This document shows positions 47,227 to 58,400 of a stretch of 64,000 nucleotides of DNA, in pieces (within the stretch, counting starts at the first letter, position 1; each line of letters starts with the position of its first letter). Source of the stretch: Nakaseomyces glabratus (Eukaryota; Ascomycota; Saccharomycetes; Saccharomycetales; Saccharomycetaceae); the NCBI RefSeq assembly GCF_010111755.1, contig NC_088959.1, positions 372,001 through 436,000 of the forward strand, written 5' to 3'. Under the pieces are notes generated by a model. It saw only the letters and a program-made list of their open reading frames with translations. It did not search any database and was not told where the DNA came from. The translations under genes were made by a program, and so were the position numbers.

Positions 47227-48117
47227 TTACTCCAAAGATGAAGCACCAGTAATAATATCCACCAATTCGTTGGTAATAACAGCTTGTCTAGTTCTGTTGT
47301 ATAGAATGGAGTACCTGTTGATCATATCACCAGCATTCTTAGAAGCGTTATCCATAGCATTTCTTCTGGCTGAAATCTCAGCAGCATAACCCTCGGCCAT
47401 TGCGGTCATAATTTGGTTAGCCAAAGTGTATTCAAAAAGGTCACGGGATACCTTGTTGTCAGCATCAATTTCAAACTTGCTGTATGATGGGGATTGTTCA
47501 ATTGTTTCTGGATTGAAAACTGGCTTGCTAGTAGGTTCAAATGACAAAGAACTTATTGGATCATTGTAGTAGATAGAGATCTTTGGATAAATACCAGCAT
47601 TCAATTCGGTCAAGATTTTGTCAGCAATCAAACTAGATTCCTCAAAAGTTGGGGCTTCTTTACCAACACCATTGATTGAGAACTTCAAATTATCTGGATT
47701 GCTTCTCAATAGTTGGGTCTTTATTTTATCACCAATAGTAACGACATCAGCTTGTGGAGCTTCAGCTAAATGTCTTCTGACTGCTTTGGCCAATTGTGAG
47801 TGAATAGCACCACATAGACCCTTGTCCGAAGTGATGGCAATGACCAATTCTTTAGGAGTTTCACCCTCTGCTTCCAAAGGTTTTGTCTCGGCGTTGTTGT
47901 AAAATTGTTTGTCAGCAGCATCCATCTTCTTTGCAGCTAGTTTGGCTTTCTCAGCTTTACTCAATCTAGTAGAAGCGACAATTTTCATGGTCTTTGTAAT
48001 CTTTTCGATGTTTTTAATGGACTTCAATCTAGTTTCAACTTCTTTCAAAGTGGCATAGTTTCTGGTCGATGCCCAGGCAATCGACCTACTACCATTGATA
48101 ATATTTCTAGACAACAT
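47227..48117 (-). CDS. ATP3: Mitochondrial F1-ATP synthase gamma subunit
   Basis: Central rotating shaft of the F1Fo ATP synthase. 296 aa. The N-terminal about 20 residues (MLSRNIINGSRSIAWASTRNYA) are a basic presequence. The mature start ATLKEVETRLKSIKNIEKITKTMKIVASTRLSKAEKA, the central ITSDKGLCGAIHSQLAK and the C-terminal signature EISARRNAMDNASKNAGDMINRYSILYNRTRQAVITNELVDIITGA are unmistakable. The start at 48117 matches the family. HAP and Cbf1 sites lie upstream, as expected for a respiratory gene. Confidence 0.98.
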   Translation of the reverse strand: MLSRNIINGSRSIAWASTRNYATLKEVETRLKSIKNIEKITKTMKIVASTRLSKAEKAKLAAKKMDAADKQFYNNAETKPLEAEGETPKELVIAITSDKGLCGAIHSQLAKAVRRHLAEAPQADVVTIGDKIKTQLLRSNPDNLKFSINGVGKEAPTFEESSLIADKILTELNAGIYPKISIYYNDPISSLSFEPTSKPVFNPETIEQSPSYSKFEIDADNKVSRDLFEYTLANQIMTAMAEGYAAEISARRNAMDNASKNAGDMINRYSILYNRTRQAVITNELVDIITGASSLE

Positions 48118-48879
48118 TCTGAATTCACAAATGATACAGCTTCCTCACTTTGTCTCAAAACTTCTTCCTTAGGCACCCTATACAGTTATATCAAGCAGTA
48201 TATTGCAAGTTTCTATTCTAACTCTCTTTAATAAAGGGCAGATAAAACTTTCAATAAGAAACAAATTCAAAAGAGACACTTGATGGTCACCGATAATATA
48301 ACCACTCTGAAGTCAACAAACTATGATGGCTAAATATTATTGAAGCTTAAGGTAGGATTATTTGTTTAAGAAACATTTACTAGTGTCACGGATGAGACTA
48401 TTCATTCTATTTTGCCATTCCCCCAATTGCTATTGGAAGAAAACATGAGTTACAGAGTACACACTGCAGATAGCTTGACGTTGAGAATGATGTTCTTCGT
48501 TTTTCCGATCTTCGAAGAAGAAGGGACGTTCAGGTGTCTTTACTACGACCCTTTCACTCAGAAGTGCATGTACTTATATATGATTGGTTAAATGTCACGT
48601 GACTAAAGTTGTTTACAGCTATCTATTTCAGTTGCAGTACCGCGCATAATGTTTGCGGTACTATAATGAAATTGATAATCCCAAAACCACATTGTATTGC
48701 GCACACAAGAAATATCTCTAAGATAACAAGACGTAGACGGCCAACATTGTTTTCTCTAAATTTTGTAGATTATTGGTTCTGAAAGTCCTATAGTCATGGA
48801 ATTATTTTACGTTTTTAAGAGTTTTTGTGTGTCTTTCAACTACTACCTTATATTTCGAGATTAAAGAGTAGTGCGAGAA
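48118..48879 (-). promoter_or_regulatory. ATP3 promoter with HAP and Cbf1 sites; TLC1 terminator region
   Basis: On the minus strand ACCAATCA (48581-48588) fits the HAP2/3/4/5 consensus ACCAATNA exactly, and the palindrome GTCACGTGAC (48594-48603) contains a Cbf1 core 6 bp away. Both lie about 465-485 bp upstream of ATP3. The stretch also receives transcription from the telomerase RNA gene, which runs in the same direction. Binding is inferred. Confidence 0.55.
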
Positions 48880-48889
48880 ATTGAATTTT

Positions 48890-48898
48890 CCAAAAATT
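48890..48898 (-). other. Sm-binding site at the 3' end of telomerase RNA
   Basis: AATTTTTGG on the minus strand, identical to the Sm site of S. cerevisiae TLC1. The mature 3' end should lie within about 5-20 nt beyond it. It is 1.7 kb from the template, against about 0.7 kb in S. cerevisiae. Confidence 0.85.
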
Positions 48899-49851
48899 GT
48901 AAGCAGAATTGATTTGAAAGTATAACAACAGGAAATGATGGCTTTAGTAGATGAATCCAAAAAGCGTTAACATTTACCTATGATTGTTTCTCATGCAAAC
49001 TTCCAATATACCGCTAAATGGATATTACCGAATGTGAAGACACTGGTTAATTATCCAAAAAAAAAGTGTTTGTAGATTTTGTGAAACACAGTCAAATATC
49101 AAGTGAATGAGTTTTCTTGCCATTCCTGTATTCACATGTAAGAATACATTAACGGATCGTATCAAAACCCAATAAACACATACGATTGAGGGTCAGAAGG
49201 ATATAACATTTTCAAAAATGAAAATAAATATTCTATCCTCCTGTAGTGATGCCAGTCACCAACTAACATAAAATACCTGAAGTTAATCATCATTATAAGT
49301 AGCGAACAGCCGAACACGAGTCAAATAGTAAACATTCGAAATTGTGTTCAGTTACCAAGAATAGATCTACTAGTTTTCTCATCACAGGATATTACAGCCA
49401 AAGTTATTGATCTATGCTGTGATATAATCAGAATAGCACAACATTAATTCCACTGGAAATAGTTAATTAGTCTCATTAGATCGACATTAGAGAAGGGGTA
49501 TACCGGAAATATTATACATTGCAATTGGATGTTCCAAATAATTACAATCATCAAAATGAAAATTGTTAAATGTATATGCAAAAGCAATGTTCCTCACTCC
49601 TAACTCTGAGCGCGCGCTCTCTCATATGGCAGAGTTGTTGCTCCTTGTGCAAGTCGATTATTTCCAAAGACTGCTATTGATGATTTAGAGATGTTGATCT
49701 GACGAAAAAAGCTAATAGATATCCATTGGTATCAACCCTAAAATAGTATTAGAATCTCGAGTACACCTCGCTCATTAAAACACTACATAGTGTTTACAGC
49801 CCGCATACATTATAATGAATATTGATTATGTCATCACAATTAAAACTGCTA

Positions 49852-50034
49852 TCTAAGAAACCTCGTGTGAGACCAAAAAAGATAAACAATCGCTGTTCCT
49901 ACGCACCTGTAGTCAACAAAACCACAGACACTAAGAAACAGACGTACTGATATAGCGTTTTTGAGCTCGTTAAGATTATAGACCTATCATGAAAGAACTA
50001 GTCTTCTAAGAAAGCACCGCACGAGACAAAAAAA
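49852..50034 (-). repeat. Imperfect direct repeat inside telomerase RNA
   Basis: TCTAAGAAA-CTCGTGTGAGAC-A(n) at 49852-49880 resembles TCTAAGAAAGCACCGCACGAGAC-A(n) at 50005-50034, 153 nt away. ACTAAGAAACAGAC at 49928-49941 is a weaker third copy. All are given on the plus strand. They may reflect internal duplication that lengthened the RNA. Confidence 0.5.
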
Positions 50035-50597
50035 TCGCATGCAGCATTTTATCAGTGAAAAACGAAAAAAGCAGGAATGCGAAAATCATTCTTCAATAGA
50101 TATTGCTTCTCAGATGCTCTCCCATGAAAGTTGCGATGTCATTGTGATGGACCACTCCAGCGTATCTGGTCATACCAGAGTATTGTTGTAGAAAATAAGA
50201 GCCTTCATCATTCAAGCTATACAAAGGACTATGAAAAGAGTAGTTGACGCTAAACCCATAATCAGATCTATGCATTAACTAGTAAAAACCCATGGTAACC
50301 AAAGTACAGCGTTGGATAGTTATTAGTAGTTCCATTTATCAATCAACAATGCTCCGGAATATTGCAAATGTTTCTCATAATAAACTCAAAGTTATAGGAC
50401 CTATGTTTTGAACTCATAAAAGAGGAACATAAGAAGACCTAATCTGATGGTGACATGGCATACAAAGCATGATCTATCTCTGATAGGTTTTCCTGAATTA
50501 CTTTTTGTTTTGCATGCATTAGATCAAGAACAAACTCCACCAATGCTCACAGAAGATTCAGGTTAGCCAATAATCAGATATTACAGATCTATGGGTA

Positions 50598-50616
50598 CTG
50601 TGGGGTCTGGGTGCTG
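50598..50616 (-). other. Telomerase template
   Basis: The RNA reads CAGCACCCAGACCCCACAG: one full 16-nt repeat plus a 3-nt CAG repeated at both ends for realignment. A template of just over one repeat explains homogeneous rather than degenerate telomeres. Confidence 0.92.
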
Positions 50617-50628
50617 ACTGGTAAATCC

Positions 50629-50642
50629 CTCCCTCCTGGGAG
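50629..50642 (-). other. Hairpin 5' of the telomerase template
   Basis: Plus-strand CTCCC-TCCT-GGGAG folds into a 5-bp GC-rich stem with a 4-nt loop. In the RNA it lies 12 nt upstream of the template, the place where yeast telomerase RNAs keep the template boundary helix. The role is inferred. Confidence 0.5.
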
Positions 50643-51177
50643 TTTCCTTACAACATAGATGTTAAGCATAAAATTGAAGTCCTAGGTGCTTAAAAACCTC
50701 TTTGGAATTTTCAACTCTTTACTTGCGTCCTGTGCATAGCTCATCATCTTTTATATGAGTGCCTACACTCTGCAATGGAAGCCCAGGAGTGAAAGAATGT
50801 CAAACCATGGCTTGATATTGACTGTGTTTCCAAAGATACATGATATGGTATATTATGCCAGAAATGGGAGTGTGACGAAAGAAACCACGAGGACATGCGT
50901 ATGCACCTGTGATCCGCATAAACACCAATCACTTTCTAACATTATACAACCACATGCAACTTACACACGTCTCTAAACGCGATAGCGGTTAATACAAAAC
51001 CCTACTTAAAATTGGTAACCAATGGTACCTGTCGTTAAAAAGCTACGTTATGGTTCATGATGGTGAGATACTGTCAGTTCGATTGAACAAAACACGACAA
51101 CCAACTCGAATTTGATATGTGTGAATTGAATGCCTTTTTGTCACGAGAAAAATTTTTCATGATGATGTTTTGCTAAC

Positions 51178-51183
51178 TATATA
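51178..51183 (-). promoter_or_regulatory. TATA box candidate of telomerase RNA gene
   Basis: TATATA in a TTTATATAG context on the minus strand. A start 40-120 nt downstream would put about 450-530 nt between the RNA 5' end and the template, close to the S. cerevisiae value of about 468. Confidence 0.5.
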
Positions 51184-52145
51184 AATTGCTGAAAAATACT
51201 GAATACATAAGATGAAATAATAATAATTCAGGTCAATGAAATAAGCAAATTTATTCAGTTCGATTTAAATTCTTACATAGCCTCTCGAGGAAAGCTATTT
51301 CCAACCAGAATTTTATTATAACATTGAGGTTTTAGTGGTAGATAGTTAGGCTAAAGTTGTTATTGAATGAAAAGGATTTCTGAAGAACTTCAGTCTGATT
51401 GATCTTACCGATTATGTCTATTCCTATCGTAAGCATATCGATTATCCAGTATCATTGGCTGTCTGCATTTAACCTACTTGCAAACGGTCTCTCTAAGCTG
51501 GAAGAATAAGTCCATGCATCATAAATTTTAGTGGTGTGTTGGCGAGAAGCTTCAAGTTCAGTGATTTATATCTGATACATCTCTTGATGTATCATACTCT
51601 ATGATTTTCTTCACTCTACAGCTTTTCAGACATGTATATTTTGAATCTATCTATAATAGTCATCTTGCCCGTCCCACTTAGATCAAGTTACCTAAAATTG
51701 CGAGTCTTGATCATGGGCATGCCCAAGTAGCAAATACTTTATTAAATGGTAAAGGATTAACCATTAGCTGTAGGCCTTTTTAAATAAGGAACTTTTTTGA
51801 AGACTATCAAGTGTTGTAAGTTATAACTGGTTCGTCAGTCAAAACGGAGTCAAATTAGCGTCTCGGGTGCCCTGTTAAGACGTAATTCGCTCAATGTGCT
51901 TAATTGCAAATTGTCACTGCTGAAAATCGGATGTGAATTGAAGGGGCCAGGGTGTCTCAGCGATGAGTAATATCAATTTTGTTATGTTGAGGAATAGACC
52001 ATTGCAGATGCAGATATATAAATCAATCTGTAAAAACATCTATTTTTTTAGTGGAAGGCAGGTTTCATTAAAGAAATTAAACTTTCGTTTTATTTCTTAT
52101 TGTTTGCAGAAAAATAACTATAAAATTAAGCATATTACATCAAAA
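51184..52145. promoter_or_regulatory. Divergent region between TLC1 and the PDX3 core start, with strong hairpins
   Basis: No protein gene is seen to about 51962. A perfect 9-bp stem with 4-nt loop lies at 51573-51594 (TGATACATC-TCTT-GATGTATCA). A second nested inverted repeat lies at 51664-51727: CTTGCCC outer arm, GATCAAG (51681-51687) / CTTGATC (51706-51712) inner stem, and the palindrome TGGGCATGCCCA at 51714-51725. The end from 51963 is in frame with PDX3 and may be translated. I recall an H/ACA snoRNA (snR161) at this location in S. cerevisiae, but no clear H and ACA boxes were confirmed. Confidence 0.35.
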
Positions 52146-52829
52146 ATGTCTGAGAAGGAGACCACGCAGCAACCAATTATATTTGCACCAGAAACTTATC
52201 AATATGATAAGTACTCGCTGAATGAGGGTCAACTGAAAGATGACCCAATTGATCAATTTGTTGAATGGTTTGATGACGCTAAGAATGACCCCAGAGAGAC
52301 ACTACCAGAGGCAATCACATTTTCTTCTGCCGAACTTCCCAGTGGAAGAGTCTCATCTCGTGTGTTATTGTTCAAAGAATTGGACCACAGAGGTTTTACC
52401 ATCTATTCTAACTGGAAAACAAGTGGTAAAGCACATGACATTGCCACAAATCCAAACGTTGCTATTAATTTCTTTTGGAGAGATTTGCAAAGGCAAATCC
52501 GTATTGAAGGTTTCTCAGAGCATGTTAATCGCGAGACATCAGAAAGGTATTTTCAAACTAGGCCTCGTGGTTCGAAGATAGGTGCTTGGTCTAGTCCTCA
52601 ATCCACTGTATTGAAAGATAGAAATGAGTTGGAACATATTGTCCAAGAAAATGAGAATAGATTTAAAGGTGTCGAAGATGTGCCATGTCCTGACTACTGG
52701 GGTGGTTTGAGAGTAGTCCCTTTGCGTATTGAGTTTTGGCAAGGAAGGCCAAGCCGTCTACATGATAGGTTCGTATATGAAAGGAAAACAGAGCATGACC
52801 CATGGGAACTACATAGAATCGCTCCATGA
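51963..52829 (+). CDS. PDX3: Pyridoxamine-5'-phosphate oxidase, possible long mitochondrial form
   Basis: FMN enzyme that oxidises pyridoxine or pyridoxamine 5'-phosphate to pyridoxal phosphate with O2. The conserved protein starts at the ATG at 52146 (MSEKETTQQPIIFAPETYQYDKY) and is 227 aa, as in S. cerevisiae (228). Core segments: SSAELPSGRVSSRVLLFKELDHRGF, FFWRDLQRQIRIEG, RPRGSKIGAWSS, and the PNPOx signature (PDYWGGLRVVPLRIEFWQGRPSRLHDR). The frame stays open to an ATG at 51963, adding 61 residues with no Asp or Glu, many Lys/Arg and aromatic residues, like a mitochondrial presequence. I give the long frame; the start at 52146 is certain to encode the catalytic protein and is the more probable main start. 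Confidence 0.95.
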   Translation: MSNINFVMLRNRPLQMQIYKSICKNIYFFSGRQVSLKKLNFRFISYCLQKNNYKIKHITSKMSEKETTQQPIIFAPETYQYDKYSLNEGQLKDDPIDQFVEWFDDAKNDPRETLPEAITFSSAELPSGRVSSRVLLFKELDHRGFTIYSNWKTSGKAHDIATNPNVAINFFWRDLQRQIRIEGFSEHVNRETSERYFQTRPRGSKIGAWSSPQSTVLKDRNELEHIVQENENRFKGVEDVPCPDYWGGLRVVPLRIEFWQGRPSRLHDRFVYERKTEHDPWELHRIAP

Positions 52830-57128: not shown

Positions 57129-58400
57129 TTAATGCTGCATTTTTTTCTCATTAAATGTAAAGCTCAGGATTAAACAGCAAATGGTCAAAATAATGTATCC
57201 GATCACTTCCCATCTTATGATGGTTGTTTGAGTTGGTTCACTAATCCAGTCGCTAATACCCATAAAGATAATTGCACCCAAGTTGCATGTGGTCAAGTAC
57301 TCAGGAGAGGCATTTCTATTCAACAATAATAGGGATAATAAGCATGGGATTACACCAAATACAATACCAACCATAGCTGATAGCCAGAATGTTCTATCGC
57401 TGTAAAGAAAAGATACAGTTTCGCTTGACGTTGGAATGGCAGGCAGGAATGGAAATAAGACAATCATACCGACCAAACCAATGAAAGATAGATGAGTACA
57501 TTGTTTGACAAAACTGTTGACAGCATTTCTGGCCTTGATGTGTTCCAACAGCGAATGTGAAACAGAAGATTGTGGCAAAGTTTTTGTGAGCACACTCGAG
57601 CTGCGAGAGCGGCCACCAAACCAACGGTTCCAAAGCACTGCGAATGGACCAATAGTCAAAGCACCCAGACCACATAGCAAGGAACTCTTTAATCTGTCAA
57701 ATAAGAAAGGATCAGATAGTTCGCCTGTATCTTTGTTAATAGATAATTTACCAGATAGCATATCGCAGGTGGCTTTGGTGTATGATATGATCAGAATACC
57801 AATCAGAGCAGTAAGCATGATAATGAAGTTTCTGAAGACGTTTTGTCTCCTTGCCAAACCGCAGACACCATACAACAAAGTAACTATTTCAAAGATCGAA
57901 GTGTTTTGGATCAGAGCCACGTCAAAAGCTGGTGACATGGACAGGGCCAAGTTATAAGTGACCAGAGCTATGATCAGTAAAGCGGTCAATACTATCAGCT
58001 TCAAAAAATAGGTGAAGTTTCTCCACGACACTATTTGGTTGTTCTTGTTAGCCTGGCGTTGGTAGTATTGCAACAGCATTCTATTCGTGTTTCTGTGTTC
58101 AGGATCCTCGTCCCCTTCGACAATGGGCACCAGGTCTGCCTGATCAGGCTCGGTACTCTGTTTGAACTCTTTCCACATTTTAGCTATAGGCATCAAGAAA
58201 GTCCATGATGCGAAATATATGAATGTCAGGTACAGCGTGAGTATATACGTACCGCTTGAAGTGTTACCTGTATCCACGCCTGCTGCATCCTGTTCCGACG
58301 CGCTCGTAGCAACAACTTGCCTCGACTGTATAGTCGATATACATTTAGTCTGTATCACGTAACCGATCACACCGGTAAACCATAGTAAAGAGTTTGACAT
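57129..58400 (-). CDS. CSG2: Csg2 ER protein, MIPC synthase regulatory subunit
   Basis: Multi-spanning ER membrane protein that partners the mannosyltransferases Csg1/Csh1 to make mannosyl-inositolphosphoceramide; loss causes Ca2+ sensitivity. 423 aa (S. cerevisiae 410). The start MSNSLLWFTGVIGYVIQTKC is close to Csg2 (M-S-T-T-L-L-W-F-S). Conserved stretches include NLALSMSPAFDVALIQNTSIFEIVTLLYGVCG, IGILIISYTKATCDMLSGKLS, DPFLFDRLKSSLLCGLGAL and LTTCNLGAIIFMGISDW. About nine or ten hydrophobic segments show drug/metabolite-transporter-like topology. I first thought of the YML018C/THI74 family, but these segments are specific to Csg2. Confidence 0.94.
   Translation of the reverse strand: MSNSLLWFTGVIGYVIQTKCISTIQSRQVVATSASEQDAAGVDTGNTSSGTYILTLYLTFIYFASWTFLMPIAKMWKEFKQSTEPDQADLVPIVEGDEDPEHRNTNRMLLQYYQRQANKNNQIVSWRNFTYFLKLIVLTALLIIALVTYNLALSMSPAFDVALIQNTSIFEIVTLLYGVCGLARRQNVFRNFIIMLTALIGILIISYTKATCDMLSGKLSINKDTGELSDPFLFDRLKSSLLCGLGALTIGPFAVLWNRWFGGRSRSSSVLTKTLPQSSVSHSLLEHIKARNAVNSFVKQCTHLSFIGLVGMIVLFPFLPAIPTSSETVSFLYSDRTFWLSAMVGIVFGVIPCLLSLLLLNRNASPEYLTTCNLGAIIFMGISDWISEPTQTTIIRWEVIGYIILTICCLILSFTFNEKKMQH

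Follow-up and report, generated by a model that had tools for sequence, protein, structure and literature searches.

The window, i.e., the whole stretch of 64,000 nucleotides of Candida glabrata DNA that was analysed, contains a 3.8-kb gap bordered by ATP3 and PDX3, with FIG1, an arginine methyltransferase, a CDP-diglyceride synthase type protein, and CSG2 lying further outward as identified by Pfam (Table 1). A preliminary description of this DNA had called the gap empty of protein-coding genes and had proposed that it hides a telomerase RNA gene. In terms of coding potential the description of the gap stands, as no ATG frame of at least 150 aa is fully contained in 48118-51962, and the longest frame in the gap apart from the PDX3 frame measures 73 aa. 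However, the gap also holds the H/ACA snoRNA snR161, which occupies a single place in the genome and is divergent from the telomerase RNA gene TLC1 in the same gap. The neighbour on which the proposal had drawn, PDX3, is indeed found by Pfam beside the gap, and PDX3 presumably adjoins TLC1 in S. cerevisiae as well, whose RNA likewise has a template and an Sm site. CSG2, which likewise adjoins TLC1 in S. cerevisiae, is located some 7 kb from TLC1 in the window, past PDX3 plus two more genes; measured against the S. cerevisiae neighbourhood, this position may reflect a local rearrangement.

Table 1. Features in and around the gap between ATP3 and PDX3. Positions refer to the window, except for the RNase MRP RNA, which is given on its own contig (C13).
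Feature	Position	Strand	Basis
ATP3	47227-48117	minus	Pfam PF00231
TLC1 RNA, published extent	48878-50834	minus	PMC6115765 Table 1, shifted; 5' end approximate
Sm site AATTTTTGG	48890-48898	minus	motif; equals published 419,206-419,214
Proposed P3-like (Pop-binding) domain with 3'-bulged proximal stem, candidate Est1/Pop arm	49453-49667	minus	13-mer, helix search, folds
13-mer CTTGCACAAGGAG, CS2a-like, common to MRP P3	49641-49653	minus	two places in the genome
Predicted three-way-junction arm	49984-50130	minus	52 pairs; folds and shuffles
Published Est1-binding region	50341-50536	minus	PMC6115765 Table 1
Proposed 9-bp alignment region	50592-50600	minus	RNA CAGUACCCA with telomeric 3' end TGGGTGCTG, one G-U
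Template, 19 nt	50598-50616	minus	RNA CAGCACCCAGACCCCACAG; equals published 420,914-420,932
Possible template-boundary hairpin, weak, 4 nt from template	50621-50651	minus	fold
Putative Ku-binding hairpin, published	50691-50765	minus	PMC6115765 Table 1
snR161, H/ACA snoRNA (RF01237)	51432-51635	plus	67.6 bits against a gathering threshold of 50
PDX3	52146-52829	plus	Pfam PF01243, PF10590
CSG2	57129-58400	minus	Pfam
RNase MRP RNA (RF00030)	C13:710509-710848		74.6 bits; P3 placed by cmscan alignment

The TLC1 gene of C. glabrata was reportedly published by Kachouri-Lafond et al. in 2009, and judging from its sequence the stretch on the minus strand of the gap is almost certainly this already known gene. 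The C. glabrata row in Table 1 of PMC6115765 (Waldl et al. 2018), which refers to the minus strand of NC_006032.2 and credits Kachouri-Lafond et al. 2009, lists the RNA at 419,194-421,150 (with the 5' ends in the table termed approximate), the template at 420,914-420,932, the Sm site at 419,206-419,214, the Ku site at 421,007-421,081, and the Est1 site at 420,657-420,852. When these entries are moved into the window by one constant offset (minus 370,316), the listed template falls at 50598-50616 and the listed Sm site at 48890-48898, both base-exact against the window sequence. As template and Sm site match the published coordinates to the base, the locus is the known TLC1: the two elements, their strand, and their spacing are identical, and the length from template to Sm site shows no difference. 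The proposal of a telomerase RNA gene thus agrees with the published listing, and so does the accompanying suspicion that the gene might not be new. The gene being already known, its identification in itself adds little.

The permuted telomere repeat that had led to the proposal is perfect: on the plus strand, 50598-50616 reads CTGTGGGGTCTGGGTGCTG, which is one permuted 16-nt telomere unit plus 3 nt. A search of the window for the template allowing up to 3 mismatches gave 2 matches where 0.02 were expected, the second of them with 3 mismatches, and in the whole genome (12.7 Mb, 13 contigs) TLC1 is single-copy, with one match. The template is matched by the telomeres of this genome, as the unit CTGGGTGCTGTGGGGT occurs 622 times in forward and 584 times in reverse orientation and stands in 28-66 exact copies at each of the 26 contig ends; a telomere repeat of another kind, which the preliminary description had named as the finding that would speak against it, is not what these ends carry. 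The genome search also retrieved one TERT RNA-binding domain (PF12009, 97.7 bits, in an 851-aa frame) for an Est2-type partner and one EST1 domain (PF10374, 90.3 bits, in a 1032-aa frame) for an Est1-type partner. Est2 would reverse-transcribe the TLC1 template into the 16-nt telomere unit. In S. cerevisiae, by contrast, the telomeres are degenerate TG1-3 rather than built from a regular unit.

Telomere-like fragments are present at internal positions of yeast genomes, and one could therefore read the match at 50598 as an interstitial telomeric fragment belonging to no gene. The Rfam scans are compatible with such a reading, as no telomerase RNA family was retrieved from the window at the gathering threshold, nor from 48118-52200 at up to E 10, where four weak chance matches were obtained besides snR161. 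It is nevertheless very nearly out of the question: the published coordinates agree exactly, including those of the Sm site 1.7 kb away, 50598-50616 is the only perfect match within the window, and a published deletion phenotype already refutes it, with a passage in PMC8305976 citing from the 2009 paper senescence after loss of C. glabrata telomerase, along with the transcription and telomere shortening reported there. A match to an Rfam family is a detection aid for telomerase RNA and not a defining trait, and yeast telomerase RNAs of this kind are stated in PMC6115765 to evade homology search. A large TLC1 and its template are also mentioned for the glabrata group in PMC3847288.

The Sm site was said to lie 1.7 kb downstream of the template in the RNA sense, and it is present there, coinciding with the published site. 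The motif alone is near chance and is weak evidence, with AATTTTTGG occurring 3 times in the window against about 1.2 expected and AATTTTTG 12 times against 11.05 expected. The Sm site call is credible because the template-to-Sm spacing agrees exactly with the published spacing.

Two of the four supports given in the preliminary description, the TATA box and the RNA length of about 2.2 kb, fail as stated. The coordinates in PMC6115765 yield an RNA of 1,957 nt, whereas a passage in PMC3603654 gives about 2,030 nt, and PMC5499181 speaks of more than 2 kb; S. cerevisiae TLC1, in contrast, measures about 1.16 kb. The suggested length thus exceeds the published values of 1,957 and about 2,030 nt by 150-300 nt, and the suggested 5' end at 51110 compares with 50834 from the published extent, or with a position near 50908 if the length from PMC3603654 is used. 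An RNA of about 2.2 kb starting near 51110, beneath a TATA element at 51178-51185, is unlikely even if TATA elements can be almost palindromic and even if the 5' end is termed approximate in the published table, as the minus-strand reading of the element departs from TATAWAWR and both lengths in print are shorter. On the plus strand, where the consensus is fitted, the element reads TATATAAA and faces snR161 from some 250 bp upstream, and snR161 is its likelier owner. From the template to the PDX3 frame, the minus strand has a single TATAWAWR, at 50748-50755 inside the published RNA. Given that 90 such words occur in the window, the element at 51178-51185 is weak evidence either way. The gene is known and confirmed, and the claims on its promoter and length are corrected.

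With the identity of the locus established, we turned to two of its parts for which our reading differs from the existing annotation, namely the region on which the telomere end realigns, which we propose to be longer, and the Pop/Est1 arm, which we would place elsewhere. According to a passage in PMC8211666, the C. glabrata template is short for its unit, with a ratio of 1.19 (19 nt per 16-nt unit). The annotated repeat of the template spans 3 nt (CTG); we infer a longer one, of 9 bp including one G-U. After each addition of 16 nt, the DNA end TGGGTGCTG would move back and pair with the nine RNA bases CAGUACCCA, i.e., with nine bases including one G-U, beyond the trinucleotide CAG. In the RNA, a U follows the copied region on its 3' side, opposite a telomeric G position, and would serve purely as an anchor that is never copied. 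With RNA/RNA energies as a stand-in, the nine pairs amount to -14.0 kcal/mol and the three pairs to -0.1 kcal/mol. The chance of six further bases pairing with at most one G-U is about 0.0017, assuming equal base use, and the nine-base pairing had been noticed by eye prior to this calculation.

The telomere tracts of the genome assembly (26 tracts, 21,538 nt; those of C12R and C13R are the same, leaving 25 distinct) bear on what is copied. Because GGGTACTG and GTGCTGA are absent from the 26 tracts (0 each, as opposed to 1,307 occurrences of GGGTGCTG) and TGGGTACTGTGGGG has a single occurrence in the genome, inside TLC1, the U appears not to be copied and copying to end at the annotated boundary. 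The tracts also bear on a simpler alternative, in which the DNA end realigns on the three bases CAG alone and the register is set by Est2 rather than by base pairing. This is possible, although we lean away from it. Other telomerases are said in PMC8211666 to need as few as two annealing bases, and recombination or assembly polishing may homogenise the arrays and so hide rare errors. It would, however, leave the pairing of the six further bases to the chance given above, and a second CTG within the template (50607-50609) would allow three identical pairs, but realignment on it has left no trace: its product GTGCTGGGTGCTG was found 0 times in the 25 distinct tracts and the correct GTGCTGTGGGGT 1,189 times. 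In the same tracts the base after GGGTGCTG is T in 1,277 cases and G in 2. The nine-base anchor explains this choice of register; an Est2 constraint, telomere recombination, or assembly polishing could explain it too. If the G-U-containing alignment region is real, it would explain how near-perfect repeats arise from a template that seems too short for them.

The telomere tracts at the 26 contig ends show some variation of their own. Their commonest variant carries GGG instead of GGGG (57 versus 1,197 occurrences), and five G runs of 12-29 G are also present; either slippage on the template CCCC or sequencing error would account for both. The terminal tracts of the right ends of C12 and C13 are identical over 451 nt, which points to recent exchange or to one end having been assembled twice. 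Six of the 26 ends (C5L, C6L, C11L, C12L, C4R, and C9R) terminate in a ATCTCTCT-type sequence suggestive of long-read adapter left untrimmed, with a likeness to the PacBio hairpin adapter. Toward the subtelomere side, the inner ends of the C1L, C7L, C1R, C7R, and C10R tracts repeatedly show degenerate CTGGGTGGAGTGTGGT-type units.

For the second part, the Est1 arm, telomerase RNAs evolve too fast for functional arms to be found by ordinary homology. The Est1 arm of S. cerevisiae is described in PMC6049500 as having a P3-like domain that binds Pop1/6/7, like the P3 of RNase P/MRP, and according to PMC6115765 no Est1 site could be located in the C. glabrata group despite an earlier published one. 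As the arm is P3-like in S. cerevisiae and the Est1 site had gone unfound in the C. glabrata group, the P3 of the RNase MRP RNA from the same genome was used as a probe. A further P3 source was sought in RNase P RNA (RF00009), which gave no match at E <= 1. The best P3 match over the whole TLC1 RNA is the 13-mer CTTGCACAAGGAG from the P3 5' loop region of the MRP RNA, which occurs genome-wide only there and in TLC1. A match of at least 13 nt to the 36-nt P3 piece was reached in 1 of 2,000 dinucleotide shuffles of the TLC1 RNA, and one to the whole MRP RNA in 42 of 2,000; the next best match between the two RNAs is a 12-mer from outside P3. A 9-mer of the P3 3' loop, TTCACAAAA, has a match in TLC1 at 49077-49085, which was dropped as it forms no helix to the 13-mer.

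Around the 13-mer, a candidate P3-like domain can be drawn. Its P3a would pair AUCGAC (49658-49653) with GUCGAU (49485-49480) and carry the loop UUGCACA, its P3b would pair AGGAG with CUUCU, and a proximal stem of UUGGAAAUA (49667-49659) with UAUUUCCAG (49461-49453) would be flush on the 5' side and have an 18-nt bulge on the 3' side. P3a and P3b without the bulged stem are not significant (0.185, 200 shuffles). With the bulged stem included, the score was reached by 1 of 400 shuffles and by 1 of 235 other anchor points, in an architecture search whose bulge limit (20 nt) was chosen after the proximal stem had been seen. In six fold contexts of up to 2.2 kb, 5 of the 6 pairs of P3a have a probability of 0.96-0.98; the pairs of the proximal stem have one of 0.14-0.29 in five of these contexts and of up to 0.29 in the sixth, rising to 0.41-0.63 in a 241-nt context, and those of P3b one of about 0 in free folds. 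Forcing P3a, P3b, and the proximal stem together costs 4.7 kcal/mol, and shuffled versions of 49560-49720 are on average more stable than the stretch itself (z +1.27). The likeness to the MRP P3 of the same genome lies in the 13-mer at the P3 5' loop and in a closing helix flush with it; in contrast to the compact MRP P3, the apical part of the TLC1 candidate would measure about 145 nt and its P3b is weak. The Est1 bulge of S. cerevisiae is 5 nt according to PMC7619062, as opposed to the 18 nt of the candidate arm, and the distance from the Est1 arm to the Sm site is 480 nt in S. cerevisiae versus the 554 nt obtained here.

On this evidence, the Est1/Pop arm could be situated some 0.9 kb away from the template rather than at the published site, a placement newly proposed here. 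That the arm is instead where it was published, with the 13-mer common to the MRP RNA being a coincidence, is a serious possibility. The published site stands 61 nt from the template, near the 72-180 nt of ten other species as transcribed from the table in PMC6115765, and in the relative C. castellii the Est1 arm is found at 72 nt; the proposed site stands 930 nt away, and its P3b, as noted, is not predicted to form. On the other hand, the authors of PMC6115765 report being unable to find the Est1 site in the C. glabrata group, the published region does not differ in stability from its shuffled versions (z 0.10), the RNA as a whole has its best P3 match elsewhere (49641-49653), and the published site lies 1,442 nt from the Sm site, outside the 202-641 nt of the same ten species, a range into which the proposed site fits. 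Spacing does not decide the matter, as each site is normal on one side only and the extra length must sit on one of the two sides. Should the proposed placement hold, the Pop- and Est1-binding arm would be the P3-like domain, recognisable by a loop 13-mer identical to the MRP RNA of the species itself, and the extra length of this giant RNA would sit mainly between the template and the arm.

Between the two, the fold analysis predicted a three-way-junction arm (Table 1) with a z of -4.48, a stability reached by 0 of 200 shuffles, and with a mean pair probability of 0.93-0.95 across five contexts, one of them the full RNA. When 2,128 segments of 160 nt over both strands of the window were scored with 16 shuffles apiece, the arm came 13th. 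Rfam retrieved from 49970-50150 alone one chance match and nothing else. A three-way junction near the 3' end is reported absent from C. glabrata in PMC6115765, and the predicted one sits 1.1 kb from the Sm site; it holds AAUA, a tetranucleotide named in PMC6115765, which is a common word. According to PMC7619062, the Est1 arm of S. cerevisiae also includes a three-way junction, and by analogy the predicted one could belong to an expanded Est1 arm. It may thus represent either the missing stem-terminus element or an Est1-arm junction of the S. cerevisiae type.

Taken as one reading, a Pop/Est1 arm at 49453-49667, an insertion of about 0.8 kb that includes the three-way junction, and a nine-base alignment with a G-U pair giving exact repeats have in our estimate a probability of about 0.5. 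A literature search, with Kachouri-Lafond 2009 and Brown et al. 2007 outside its scope, returned no paper describing a P3 arm or wobble alignment for C. glabrata. If the reading is correct, telomerase tolerates a distance of about 0.9 kb between its recruitment arm and the template, and the size of the giant RNA comes mainly from the insert of some 0.8 kb between template and Est1 arm. With the candidate, the Est1/P3 arm that has long been missing from the C. glabrata group can be tested directly, and the simple device of locating the Pop-binding loop through the RNase MRP RNA of the same species could be extended to other yeasts.

The remaining structural signals of the RNA are weaker. The published Ku hairpin is not unusually stable (z +1.18). 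A hairpin next to the template, attractive in isolation as a template boundary, had a z of -1.17 alone, one of +0.24 with more flank, and a pair probability of 0.0 in three full-length folds, and is kept only as a weak prediction. A minus-strand signal at 51810 was discarded, its z going from -4.9 with 40 shuffles to -1.87 with 200. The mean structure z of the minus strand is hardly better inside TLC1 than outside (-0.46 versus -0.39). Among the 2,128 segments, the minus strand of TLC1 supplies 3 of the 20 most stable (p 0.003), an excess that is weaker at other cut-offs (p 0.02 for 40, 0.06 for 60 and 100, and 0.03 for 200).
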